A DNA stretch of 64,000 nucleotides from Adhaeribacter pallidiroseus (GTDB taxonomy: Bacteria; Bacteroidota; Bacteroidia; Cytophagales; Hymenobacteraceae): contig NZ_QASA01000001.1 of the NCBI RefSeq assembly GCF_003340495.1, forward strand, positions 4,340,001-4,404,000. The letters are read 5' to 3'. This document shows positions 39,562-50,994 of the stretch, one piece after another. The position numbers were made by a program, and so were the translations under genes. The number at the start of each line of letters is the position of its first letter. The first letter of the stretch is position 1. The notes under the pieces were generated by a model. The model did no database searches and had not been told where the DNA came from. It saw only the letters and a program-made list of their open reading frames with translations.

Positions 39562-40458
39562 ATGGCTCCTACCGAAACTTTAATTGAATTTTATCAACAC
39601 AAAATACACGATTTACCCGCCAACTTACCGAAAGAAACCGGGCATTTTAATGTATTCCGGATGGAGGATTGTCCGGTAAATACCCCGGTAACGTACAACC
39701 GACGCGATTTTTTTAAAATTACGCTCTTGCGCGGACATTTTATTTATCATTATGCCGATAAAAGTATTGAGCTTTCGGGCGCCAATCTGCTTTTTTTTAA
39801 CCCAAAAGTGCCTTACACCTGGGAAATGGTAGCGGGTACGGCAACGGGTTATTTTTGCATTTTTACGGAAGCTTTTTTCACCGAAAAAATACGCGGCAGC
39901 CTGCACGACTTACCCATGTTTGCTTTAGGCGGCAAAACGGCTTATTCTTTAACCGAAAGCCAGGACCAGGAAGTAAGCCAATTTTTCGAGAAGATGCTCG
40001 CGGAAATCAACTCCGATTATTTATTTAAATATGATTTATTACGCAACTACGTAACCGAACTTACCCACTTTGCGCTTAAAACGCAGCCTTCCGAAACGCT
40101 GTACGAACAGACTGATGCCAATGCCCGGCTCACGGCGGTGTTCCACGAGTTGCTGGAAAGGCAGTTCCCCATTGAAACCCCGGCGCAACGTTTTCGCATG
40201 CGATCGGCCAAAAACTTTGCCGACCAGTTAGCCGTGCATGTTAATCATTTAAACCGAGCCATCCGGAAAGCAACCGGTAAAACCACAACCGAGCTTATCT
40301 CCGACCGGCTGGTGAGCGAGGCCAAAGCCCTGCTCAAACACACCGACTGGAATGTTTCGGAAATCAGTTACAGCTTAGGTTTTGAAGAACCGGCGCATTT
40401 CAGCCATTTTTTTAAAAAACATACTTCCTTCCCGCCTTCTTATTTTCGGCGTGTTTGA
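39562..40458 (+). CDS. AraC-family transcriptional regulator
   Basis: This 298-residue DNA-binding regulator has a cupin-like N-terminal sensor domain (about 20-110, with DFFKITLLRGHFIYHYADKS and LLFFNPKVPYTWEM). The double helix-turn-helix AraC domain is at about 195-295 (FADQLAVHVNHLNRAIRKAT; WNVSEISYSLGFEEPAHFSH). The ATG at 39562 gives the normal family length. A short-chain dehydrogenase gene follows on the same strand after 84 bases, and this regulator probably controls it. The pairing AraC regulator + SDR is frequent in Bacteroidota. The effector is unknown. Confidence 0.9.
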   Translation: MAPTETLIEFYQHKIHDLPANLPKETGHFNVFRMEDCPVNTPVTYNRRDFFKITLLRGHFIYHYADKSIELSGANLLFFNPKVPYTWEMVAGTATGYFCIFTEAFFTEKIRGSLHDLPMFALGGKTAYSLTESQDQEVSQFFEKMLAEINSDYLFKYDLLRNYVTELTHFALKTQPSETLYEQTDANARLTAVFHELLERQFPIETPAQRFRMRSAKNFADQLAVHVNHLNRAIRKATGKTTTELISDRLVSEAKALLKHTDWNVSEISYSLGFEEPAHFSHFFKKHTSFPPSYFRRV

Positions 40459-41510: not shown

Positions 41511-41567
41511 GTCATTCTAGGAGGAACCTATTTAACTACGTAGCGAAATAGGTTCCTCCTGAATGAC
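41511..41567. repeat. palindromic repeat family A, full copy
   Basis: The left arm gtcattctaggaggaaccta runs into ttt (41511-41533), and the right arm aaataggttcctcctgaatg runs into ac (41546-41567). The centre is ctacgtag, itself a palindrome. Further copies are at 53891-53946 (full) and 45024-45056 (one arm). Confidence 0.9.
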
Positions 41568-41745
41568 GCTCACAACTTATTCTCTTGCTGAGAATCACTA
41601 CTTCCATTCTGGCCAACAAAATTTCATATAGCTTGCAACCAGAACACACCATTCTGGGTCAATTATTTACAAGGCGAGCAGGCCTAAAATATTGGTCTTG
41701 CAATCTTCATTGAAACCGGAAGTAGAAATTTTAAAAATTTAAAAA

Positions 41746-41919
41746 ATGAATCTGCCAAAAGCTTTACTCAGCGCAATTTTATTAGGCATTACCGTGCACA
41801 CCACTACGAGTTGCACCGACAAAAACGAACTACCCGGACCCAAAACGGAAAAAGAAAAAACTAGTAAAACTCCCGAAAAAAACGATCCCGGCAATTGCCC
41901 GGGTTGCGGTATGGGTTAA
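41746..41919 (+). CDS. candidate RiPP precursor: 57-residue lipoprotein-like peptide ending CPGCGMG
   Basis: This small gene (57 codons plus TAA) lies 35 bases before a DUF692 iron-oxygenase gene. The N-terminus MNLPKALLSAILLGITVHTT has a lysine, a hydrophobic core and then TTSC, a possible lipobox with Cys23. The middle (about 24-48) is Lys/Glu/Pro-rich and looks unstructured. The C-terminus is NDPGNCPGCGMG, with Cys51 and Cys54 in a CPGC arrangement. DUF692 enzymes (TglH, MbnB, ChrH, bufferin enzymes) act on Cys-containing peptides encoded beside them, and bufferin-type precursors also begin with export signals. So this is probably the substrate peptide, modified at one or both C-terminal Cys and then exported. 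That is inference; the sequence shows only the layout. It could alternatively be an unmodified small lipoprotein. Confidence 0.78.
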   Translation: MNLPKALLSAILLGITVHTTTSCTDKNELPGPKTEKEKTSKTPEKNDPGNCPGCGMG

Positions 41920-41954
41920 GGATTAATTTTATCTAAATTAAAGAACCCATAACG

Positions 41955-43082
41955 GTGCCGGAAAAAGTTTTAGCCGCGGTAGCTTGTAACTTAGATGTAG
42001 ACATTCTGGCGGCGGCCTTGCCCTTGTTTGCGGCCGGCCAGGTCGAAGCCATTGAATGGTCGTTTGATACGCTTTTCCGCACGCCCCAGATGCCCGACTG
42101 GTTTGCGGAGTTATTACAAACATATAGTCAGCAAAACCGGCTAATTGGCCACGGCGTGTATTTTTCGCTTTTTTCGGGGCAATGGAGTGTGAACCAGCAA
42201 AACTGGCTGCAACACCTGCGCGAGCTTTCCAAACTATATACTTTCGACCATATTACCGAACATTTTGGCTTTATGACCGGCCAGAATTTTCACCATGGCG
42301 CTCCCCTGCCCATTCCGTATTCCGAAACTACTTTGGCTATTGGCCAGGACCGGTTGGCCCGCATTCAGGATGCCTGCCAATGCCCGGTGGGTCTGGAGAA
42401 CCTGGCTTTTTCTTATTCCCTCGACGAAGTAAAACAACACGGTCAGTTTCTGGAACAGCTCATTACGCCGGTTAACGGCTTTCTTATCCTGGATCTACAC
42501 AATCTGTATTGCCAGCTGCACAACTTTCAGGCTTCTTACAACGAGATTATTAATCTGTATCCGCTGGATAGAGTTCGGGAAATTCATGTTTCGGGCGGCA
42601 GTTGGGAAAGCTCAGCCGTAGAACCCGACCGCAAAATCAGAAGAGACACCCACGACGAAGCTGTACCCGAAGAAGTTTTGGAGTTGCTGGCCCAAATTAT
42701 AGAAAAATGCCCGAACTTAAAATACGTGGTGCTGGAACAATTAGGCAACGCCCTGAAAAGCGAAAAAAGCAAGCAGTTGTTTTATGCCGACTTTTTAAAA
42801 ATGGAAGCTATTCTCCGGCAAAAAAACCAAAAATCCCGAACAAACGCGGGTAAAACTTTTCTCCCGGCTCCTTTTAAATTACCCGAGCAGCCCATAGAAG
42901 ATCAAACTTTAGCCGCGCAACAAATCTATTTATCCGAGATATTAGAAAATGCCGCATCGGCTGAAGAAGCCATTCATCTGCTGCAAACCTCTCCTCTGGC
43001 CCACTCCGACTGGCAGATTGAGACCTGGGAACCTTATATGATCGAAACGGCGCACAACATTGCCCGCAAATGGAAGAAGTAA
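41955..43082 (+). CDS. DUF692-family multinuclear iron oxygenase (MNIO) with C-terminal extension
   Basis: This 375-residue cytoplasmic protein has a DUF692 TIM-barrel at about 1-285, the family of multinuclear non-heme iron enzymes that modify peptide Cys or neighbouring residues. Ligand-type stretches are visible: GHGVYFSL, DHITEHFGFMTGQNFHHG, GLENLAFSYSL, LDLHNLYCQLHN, REIHVSGGSW, DTHDEAVP and VVLEQLGN. After about residue 290 a charged linker leads to about 80 helical residues (EQPIEDQTLAAQQIYLSEIL; AHSDWQIETWEPYMIETAHN) not usual for the family. I do not recognise this part; it might replace the separate partner protein other systems use. The start is the GTG at 41955, since an in-frame stop lies 21 bases upstream and no ATG intervenes. 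The precursor-like peptide gene immediately upstream is the likely substrate source. Confidence 0.87.
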   Translation: MPEKVLAAVACNLDVDILAAALPLFAAGQVEAIEWSFDTLFRTPQMPDWFAELLQTYSQQNRLIGHGVYFSLFSGQWSVNQQNWLQHLRELSKLYTFDHITEHFGFMTGQNFHHGAPLPIPYSETTLAIGQDRLARIQDACQCPVGLENLAFSYSLDEVKQHGQFLEQLITPVNGFLILDLHNLYCQLHNFQASYNEIINLYPLDRVREIHVSGGSWESSAVEPDRKIRRDTHDEAVPEEVLELLAQIIEKCPNLKYVVLEQLGNALKSEKSKQLFYADFLKMEAILRQKNQKSRTNAGKTFLPAPFKLPEQPIEDQTLAAQQIYLSEILENAASAEEAIHLLQTSPLAHSDWQIETWEPYMIETAHNIARKWKK

Positions 43083-45023: not shown

Positions 45024-45056
45024 GTCATTCAGGAGGAACCTATTTGGCTACGCAGC
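45024..45056. repeat. palindromic repeat family A, half copy
   Basis: gtcattcaggaggaacctat through ttggctacgcagc matches the left arm and centre of the repeats at 41511 and 53891; the right arm is missing. Confidence 0.8.
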
Positions 45057-49526: not shown

Positions 49527-50092
49527 TTGGAAACAACTACTCTATATATTAAAAACATGGTTTGTCCGCGCTGCATCAGCACGGTAACCCGTGTTTTACA
49601 GGAACAAGGCTTACAGGTAAATGAGGTACAATTAGGTTACGCTGAAGTGGCGGGTCACCCGGATTTAGCCCAAATTGATGCCGCCTTACAGCCCGAAGGT
49701 TTTACTTTATTACAAGACCGGGACCGGCAATTAGTCGAAAAAATTAAAAATACCTTAATCGATTATTTACAGCATTTCGAAACAGCCTACCAACCCGTTA
49801 CTACCTCGGTGTATTTAGCCGAAAAACTCGATACTGATTATTCTTACTTGAGCAAAGTGTTCTCGCGCCTGGAACCTTTTACCATCGAGAAGTATTTTAT
49901 TTTATTGAAAATTGAGCGGGTAAAAGAGTTGTTGTCTTATGGCCAATTAACTTTAAGCGAAATTGCGCACCAATTGCAATACAGCAGCGTGCAGCACTTA
50001 TCCAATCAGTTTAAAAAATTACCGGCCACTCGGTAAGTGAGTATAAAAACGCCATTCAACCAATGCGTACCCCTTTGGATGCTATTGGTTAG
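49527..50092 (+). pseudogene. HMA + AraC-type regulator, C-terminus lost by a frameshift in an A-run
   Basis: The open frame from the TTG at 49527 gives 169 residues: an N-terminal heavy-metal-associated-like domain (YIKNMVCPRCISTVTRVLQE, with Cys-x-x-Cys) and an AraC-type helix-turn-helix part (LAEKLDTDYSYLSKVFSRLE; LTLSEIAHQLQYSSVQHLSN). It ends abruptly as QFKKLPATR. If one more A is read in the run of six A at 50013-50018, the frame continues as KKITGHSVSEYKNAIQPM and so on to a TAG at 50090-50092, which is what this family should look like. So the gene is either truncated by a one-base loss, rescued by -1 slippage on the A-run, or affected by a sequencing error. The role is likely sensing copper or a similar metal, given the His/Met-rich protein and CDF exporter downstream. 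Confidence 0.82.
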
Positions 50093-50795: not shown

Positions 50796-50994
50796 CTAAT
50801 TAATGAAAGCTAACTAGCACCTGAGCCTGGAGACTTGAAAAGGCTTCAAAGAACAACCGTAAATGATAAAGCTCCATTCTATTCGCTCACATACTACATT
50901 CTTAAAAATGTAGTTGAACCCGGATTTTATACATTGTTGCCTGAATTGTGTTAAACTCTTAAGGCCTGGTAGCGTTAATTTTACAACAGAATTA

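Follow-up and report, generated by a model that had tools for sequence, protein, structure and literature searches.

A probable DybA/DybH-type RiPP-lipoprotein locus in Adhaeribacter pallidiroseus and the conserved start of its export signal

What is the function of a very small lipoprotein-like gene placed directly ahead of a gene for a DUF692 (MNIO) enzyme? The question is raised by a 64,000-nucleotide stretch of the Adhaeribacter pallidiroseus genome (the window), in which a sequence-only reading had noted a 57-codon lipoprotein-like gene, ending in CPGCGMG, 35 bases 5′ of a DUF692 gene. The ORF coordinates and the translation confirmed this arrangement, with both genes on the same strand (Table 1). 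In our assessment the locus is very probably a RiPP-lipoprotein hybrid of the DybA/DybH type, a group that its discoverers named DAG-RiPPs (PMC12636315). The locus has the CPxCGxG tail, the lipobox Cys, the MNIO enzyme with C-terminal helices, and the minimal two-gene unit without a conserved partner that mark this type. The unit is thus not a new system but another genome for a class described in late 2025; what we add is the conservation of a leader-like element in the signal peptide.

Table 1. Features of the two-gene locus, in window coordinates
Feature	Coordinates	Strand	Basis
Precursor peptide gene, 57 aa, DybA-type ('chryseobasin-related MNIO class RiPP peptide')	41746..41919	+	NF050125 match
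Leader-like element, signal-peptide residues 1-16, pattern MK[LI][SP]KxLLxAIxxG	41746..41793	+	Between-genus identity vs control lipoproteins
Lipobox Cys23 (T20-T21-S22-C23), predicted diacylglyceryl site	41812..41814	+	Motif
Variable Lys/Glu/Pro linker, residues 24-50	41815..41895	+	Alignment of order precursors
Core CPGCGMG (C51, C54), predicted macrocycle and hydantoin site	41896..41916	+	Invariant core residues
MNIO (DUF692) enzyme, DybH-type, 375 aa, TIM barrel and C-terminal helices	41955..43082	+	PF05114 match
C-terminal helical extension, enzyme residues 316-375	42900..43079	+	Helices in model

Precursor, enzyme and predicted maturation

The precursor (MNLPKALLSAILLGITVHTTTSCTDKNELPGPKTEKEKTSKTPEKNDPGNCPGCGMG) consists of an export signal, a lipobox reaching to Cys23, a linker rich in Lys, Glu and Pro, and the tail, in the layout MNLPKALLSAILLGITVHTTTSC(23)TDKNELPGPKTEKEKTSKTPEKNDPGN-C51-P-G-C54-G-M-G. 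The NF050125 model matched it over its full length with 87 bits (cut-off 40, E = 1e-24). Judged from this E value and from the constant pairing with the enzyme described below, the 57-aa ORF is real, far above chance. By its motif, the third Cys lies within a lipobox behind the export signal (TTSC, residues 20-23), from which lipidation of Cys23 is predicted; in 106 of 107 distinct precursors collected across the phylum, the residue ahead of the first Cys past position 17 was G, A or S. The linker varied from 19 to 49 aa in these 107 and showed about 30% between-genus identity once aligned. At the C-terminus, C51, P52, C54, G55 and G57 were unchanged in all 25 aligned precursors from the host's order. 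Core variants without Pro at the second place (CGPCGMG, CITCGRG, CQGCGMG and CLSCGMG) also occurred, in single precursors.

Eight places in the genome, the precursor among them, matched a DNA pattern that encodes C-x-x-C-G-x-G with a stop-like codon after it. The other seven were considered as extra substrates of the enzyme and rejected; judged by eye, none ends a secreted-looking ORF. The view of the small gene as an ordinary lipoprotein with an accidental CPGCGMG end conflicts with the invariant tail Cys residues and with the strict pairing of gene and enzyme, one to one, across the order sample; we give this explanation practically no weight.

The enzyme ORF begins with GTG and encodes a protein without a signal peptide. 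PF05114 matched it with 117 bits (cut-off 25), the sole match to this model in the 6.4-Mb genome. The best NCBIfam model was ChrH (NF050165), with 422 bits against a cut-off of 600. Because all 25 strong enzyme copies of the order likewise fell below this cut-off, we read the score as a split between ChrH and DybH rather than as a failure of the assignment. An AlphaFold2 model built with 24 aligned sequences had a mean pLDDT of 88 and a pTM of 0.90, and its top PDB matches were TglHI (8hi7, 8hci) and MbnB complexes (7fc0, 7tcr, 7dz9), all of them MNIOs. Residues H66, E148, D180/H182/N183, H211, H233/D234 and E261, which we take from the family literature to be the metal ligands, aligned with identical residues of TglH and were invariant in 24 of 24 enzymes. 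The C-terminal extension formed three helices in the model (residues 317-332, 336-344 and 360-374), and the NF050165 match extended to profile position 361 of 363. Mean pairwise identity was 56% in the extension (316-375) and 27% in the preceding linker (about 285-315). Such a helical extension is described as a feature of the ChrH subfamily in the preprint that characterised the class (PMC12636315).

That work concerns DybA/DybH of Dyadobacter crusticola (Chen et al. 2025, bioRxiv, PMC12636315). There, DybH alone converts the CPACGMG tail of DybA, with a loss of 4 Da, into a macrocycle and a hydantoin with one free thiol, and it does so also in vitro; the evidence is an NMR structure for DybA and a shift of -4 Da for ChsA and HymA, the latter a Hymenobacter peptide (tail CPGCGLG) that showed the shift on co-expression (PMC12636315). 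The lipobox supplies the third Cys, at which DybA was triacylated in E. coli, as an S-diacylglyceryl, N-acyl Cys (PMC12636315).

By analogy with these relatives, on whose published experiments our view of both the chemistry and the lipidation at the window locus is based, the iron enzyme would act in the cytoplasm and, without a partner, oxidise the C-terminal CPGCGMG by four electrons. This would join C51 and C54 in a small macrocycle and leave, in addition, a hydantoin and one free thiol (-4 Da). The modified peptide would then leave through Sec, Cys23 would receive diacylglycerol, and signal peptidase II would cut the precursor, with N-acylation probable. The end state would be a modified head on a tether of about 27 residues at the envelope. 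The sequence-only reading had placed modification of the tail Cys residues in the cytoplasm, followed by export and lipidation, a sequence of events that agrees with published DybA and, as regards the modification, also with HymA and ChsA.

In a true chryseobasin-type maturation, the enzyme would additionally S-methylate a thiohemiaminal (+10 Da), as ChrH does. The window enzyme belongs to the same subfamily as ChrH and its substrate has the same sort of core motif as chryseobasin; moreover, an Archangium enzyme of the subfamily yields both products (PMC12636315). However, the precursor misses the chryseobasin model NF050124 (ChrA; 13.4 bits, cut-off 50), the enzyme misses the ChrH cut-off as given above, and the Dyadobacter, Chitinophaga and Hymenobacter enzymes in print give the unmethylated product (PMC12636315). 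We therefore consider methylation at this locus improbable and retain the DybA/DybH-type assignment.

Pairing and neighbourhood of the two genes

To describe the distribution of the pair, we used 291 genomes of the host's order and counted an enzyme match of more than 350 bits as strong. Strong enzymes were present in 24 genomes (25 copies), and precursors over the NF050125 cut-off were found in exactly the same 24 (25 copies); each of the 25 enzyme copies was immediately preceded by the precursor gene on its own strand. Fourteen further genomes of the order contained weak MNIO matches only (70.3 bits at most). Six weak NF050125 matches (22-25 bits) that we inspected in other genomes look like generic signals. 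The sequence-only reading had named an unconserved pair, or tail Cys residues that vary freely, as grounds for giving up its proposal; with 25 of 25 enzymes paired and the Cys residues invariant, the proposal stands on both counts.

In a collection of named genomes, 281 stretches encode relatives, and the best 80 of these 281 were used for all counts of named loci; at least 5 of the 80 seem to belong to genomes that the order set also contains. A precursor-like ORF lay upstream of the enzyme in 79 of the best 80, within 150 bases in 78 of them, with a median distance of 39 bases for the 79. The precursor of one locus (L161) lay 644 bases upstream. At L118 and L173 the ORF caller missed a full enzyme ORF, though tblastn matched one. 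A DybH-type enzyme of a Chitinophagales MAG (L151:5995-7125) had no recognisable precursor on its 7.4-kb stretch. Nine of the 80 loci had two precursor genes before one enzyme (L134, L139, L142, L145, L154, L156, L157, L158 and L164).

Upstream of the pair, the window contains genes for an AraC regulator (39562-40458) and an SDR enzyme; downstream are an oppositely oriented methylpurine-DNA glycosylase gene and a DUF4136 gene, and beyond these a TonB receptor gene, a DUF5074 gene and, farther out, a cation efflux gene. No partner-like gene adjoins the pair among its nearest neighbours. When the ORFs of the 25 order loci (the window among them) and those of the 80 named loci were clustered, no third conserved gene was detected within the flanks. 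These comprised about 8-10 kb on each side for the order loci (3.5 kb in all for L066) and no more than 6 kb for the named ones, with some ended by the contig, and a conserved gene beyond them would escape this clustering. Just one other cluster was present in at least three genera of the order set, at three loci and in scattered places, and the commonest other cluster of the named loci was a sigma factor (9/80). Homologues of the AraC regulator were found at 1 of 24 order loci and 5 of 80 named loci, and those of the SDR enzyme at 2 and 3, respectively; as members of common families with low recurrence, both were judged to be there by chance and were rejected as functional partners. The earlier description of the system as unusually compact does not hold, since the bare precursor and MNIO pair is the norm of the subfamily (PMC12636315).

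Two repeats lie close to the pair. A near-perfect inverted repeat, GTCATTCTAGGAGGAACCTATTT / AAATAGGTTCCTCCTGAATGAC, occupies 41511-41567 between the SDR gene and the precursor and is perhaps a terminator hairpin. Its left arm had no second genomic match at up to 3 mismatches, and a 14-base partial copy lies at 45032. The 17-mer AGTAGAAATTTTAAAAA occurs just twice in the window, at 41721 and 43172; the two copies, which share one orientation, lie on either side of the two-gene unit, perhaps as a trace of its insertion. In Hymenobacter volaticus, the pair is on a 330-kb plasmid beside replication-initiation and ParA genes (L301, NZ_CP095062.1 264231-277343); this copy has a full-length precursor ORF, which is absent from the incomplete gene table. 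Because of the plasmid copy and the patchy distribution, the two-gene unit may be mobile.

The start of the signal peptide

The signal sequences of lipoproteins normally keep their physics only, not their sequence. As controls for the precursor, we took BamD, GldB and GldH, whose signal peptides were extracted from the same genomes and compared in 181 between-genus pairs. Because a usable lipobox was present in 22 of 24 GldB and 22 of 23 GldH sequences (one genome had no GldH match), the comparison covered the 21 of the 24 pair-bearing genomes that had all four proteins. A second copy in one genome (G096, on a short contig, L066) was omitted from this comparison and from alignments A1 and A3. 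When residues 2-16 were aligned from the N-terminus, between-genus identity was 50% for the precursor and 16, 11 and 16% for BamD, GldB and GldH, respectively, and in all 36 genus pairs the precursor lay above every control. The between-family values were 43% for the precursor and 10-15% for the controls, or 25-29% when sliding was allowed. In contrast, the ten residues ahead of the lipobox Cys did not differ (24% for the precursor vs 23, 19 and 24%), indicating that the difference from the controls is confined to the front of the signal. The three controls fit signals that conserve physics only.

The starts of the precursors were chosen by a motif on residues 1-4 or 1-5 and those of the controls by hydrophobicity and lipobox, a difference that favours the precursor at residues 2-5. 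The motif lost no precursor (112 before and 107 after removal of duplicates), and in the order set 11 of the 25 chosen Met codons were the first start of their ORF, whereas 24 of the 25 had no further Met between them and the hydrophobic stretch. Since the start motif covered residues 1-5, we recounted on residues 6-16, where identity was 45% for the precursor vs 16, 13 and 17% for the controls, and 46% vs 29, 28 and 33% when sliding of up to 4 was allowed. Third bases at four-fold degenerate sites agreed less often in the signal front (300/1042, 0.29) than in the enzyme (8667/23193, 0.37), indicating selection on the protein rather than on the DNA; a cause at the RNA level was ruled out by the same figures.

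The conservation extends across the 107 precursors of the phylum: 96% have Leu at position 8, 94% Ala at position 10, 83% Lys at position 5, and 98% either Gly or Ala at position 14. The pattern contains a small-xxx-small pair, A10/G14. A profile of the leader, searched against 12 genomes (10 with and 2 without the pair), recovered the precursor from every pair-bearing genome (E 6e-11 to 1.3e-7) and found the leader stretch on no other protein of the 12, the best other match having an E of 0.0398. The 107 precursors, including the 24 that built the profile, scored 14.6-49.2 bits, whereas 311 other signal-like N-termini from the neighbourhoods reached at most 5.6 bits (277 of the 311 were reported at all). 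ChrA starts from 30 Chryseobacterium loci had a median of 6.3 bits (lowest -3.3), with 16 of 30 above the null maximum of 5.6; by a second position-specific score that allowed one deletion, all 30 (lowest -0.4) were above all 311 null sequences (highest -2.0). These scores are suggestive of the ChrA start, MKIPxxLMA, as a weak echo of the DybA-type leader.

In the published view, the enzyme subfamily reads the seven-residue tail, which frees the N-terminus, and the authors inferred that throughout the subfamily selection on this end has been relaxed (Chen et al. 2025, PMC12636315), whereas within the DybA type we find it conserved. The pattern of conservation suggests that something in nature reads the front of the signal. 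We infer that the front half of this signal serves as a further recognition element beside the tail, read before export. More specifically, we tentatively propose that residues 1 to about 16 of the export signal double as a RiPP leader that holds the peptide back from Sec until the tail has been oxidised. A dedicated site would bind MK[LI][SP]KxLLxAIxxG, possibly in the C-terminal helices of the ChrH subfamily or in an inner-membrane partner, and the leader would delay export, or dock the peptide on the enzyme, before oxidation of the tail. This proposal arises from two facts: the enzyme lacks a signal and must act before Sec, and lipidated DybA was partly unmodified in E. coli (PMC12636315). 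The main alternative for the reader of the leader would be an inner-membrane or sorting partner.

It is also possible, if short of probable, that the conserved start reflects shared ancestry or slow evolution of the gene alone and is no recognition element. Leader sub-type tracks the lineage of the enzyme rather than the host (L065 and L068, of one genus, differ, and the nearest enzymes carry matching types), as linked descent alone would also predict. A GFP-CPACGMG fusion was modified in E. coli without the leader (PMC12636315), and the whole mature part of the precursor, with the fixed tail counted, is conserved like that of the controls (46% vs 50, 41 and 49%). Against descent alone, the same gene is less conserved in other parts, namely in the last ten residues of the signal, which are at control level, and in the linker; the lower third-base agreement indicates that there has been time enough for change; and a weakly related start is found in ChrA, a protein with a type I signal. 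If the leader is indeed read before export, it would constitute a checkpoint for the order of processing within a signal peptide. The conserved start bears on how the cell ensures that modification precedes export and on where to seek the function of the system. In a search of literature listings and of the papers cited here, we found no account of a conserved leader in these signals; the precursor logos in Figure 1c of PMC12636315 may already show the conservation.

Surface location, metal binding and relation to known systems

The optimal signal for surface export of lipoproteins in Capnocytophaga is C-x-K-(D/E)2 (PMC5080379). An exact match was present in 18 of 107 precursors, compared with 1 of 66 lipoprotein-like N-termini from the neighbourhoods and 0 of 68 controls. 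At least two acidic residues at +2 to +6 were found in 54 of 107 precursors, 10 of 66 neighbours, 11 of 22 GldH, 4 of 22 GldB and 0 of 24 BamD sequences. Surface exposure is, on these sequence motifs, likely for part of the family only. The modified tail at the cell surface that the sequence-only reading had pictured is plausible but supported in part only, by the 18 precursors; the CTDKNE of the window precursor is not an exact match to the Capnocytophaga optimum.

The same reading had guessed at metal binding from nearby metal genes. In the window, the cation-efflux gene, an AraC-type gene at 49527 and a His-rich gene at 50914 lie 6.4 to 10 kb from the pair. Within the limited flanks, homologues of these three were absent from the other order loci (0/24) and from the named loci (0/80). 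The named loci test this only weakly, because their flanks of at most 6 kb are shorter than these distances, and the order set, with about 8-10 kb, is better suited. Since the metal genes recur at none of these loci within the flanks, the argument from their proximity is without support. A surface metal chelator, like bufferins or oxazolins, is in our view an unlikely product. Bufferins, another family of MNIO products, bind copper (PMC12452194), and a script counted extra Cys residues in the linker of 23 of the 107 precursors (one of them, L140, a lipobox miscall), some as C-x3-C with His nearby. On the other hand, besides the lack of recurring metal genes, the linker of the window precursor contains no Cys, and the DybA product showed no absorbance feature like those of methanobactins or bufferins (PMC12636315). 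The precursors with extra Cys are mostly from Saprospiraceae (also Lewinella) or from Flavobacteriales such as Fluviicola, within L122-L173; examples are L136:5794-5979, L156:114-538, L161:5123-5356 and L169:5690-5920, and CDEACEVDH is one of the C-x3-C stretches. For that branch only, the linker sequence makes a metal-binding tether possible.

Among known MNIO systems, methanobactin is distant, the MbnB model giving the window enzyme 30.5 of the required 325 bits. Bufferins and oxazolins (BufABC, HvfABC) share with the window locus an MNIO enzyme and an exported precursor, which in some is lipidated; unlike the window locus, they have a partner protein, other cores and a link to copper. The window enzyme scored 99 of 310 bits with the BufB model and 82 of 360 with the HvfB model, and the 57-aa peptide gave no Pfam match to DUF2282; we know of no Pfam model for Buf2. 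Chryseobasin (ChrA/ChrH, Chryseobacterium; PMC10214503) is closer: its MNIO belongs to the same subfamily, its precursor starts in a weakly similar way (MKIPx[ILV]LMA), and its core, CPACGMG, is one that we count as a likeness to CPGCGMG. ChrA differs from the window peptide in its greater length, its type I signal without a lipobox and its S-methylated product, and its operon is longer, with chrI, chrE and chrP (PMC10214503); genes of a chryseobasin-type operon (DUF1772 protein, epimerase, M42 peptidase) were not found among the nearest neighbours of the window pair. With DybAH, ChsAH and HymAH the window locus has in common the two genes, CPxCGxG, the third Cys in a lipobox, the helical extension of the MNIO and the lack of a partner. 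It differs from them in its species, a member of the Hymenobacteraceae, and in its core, CPGCGMG, and not in kind.
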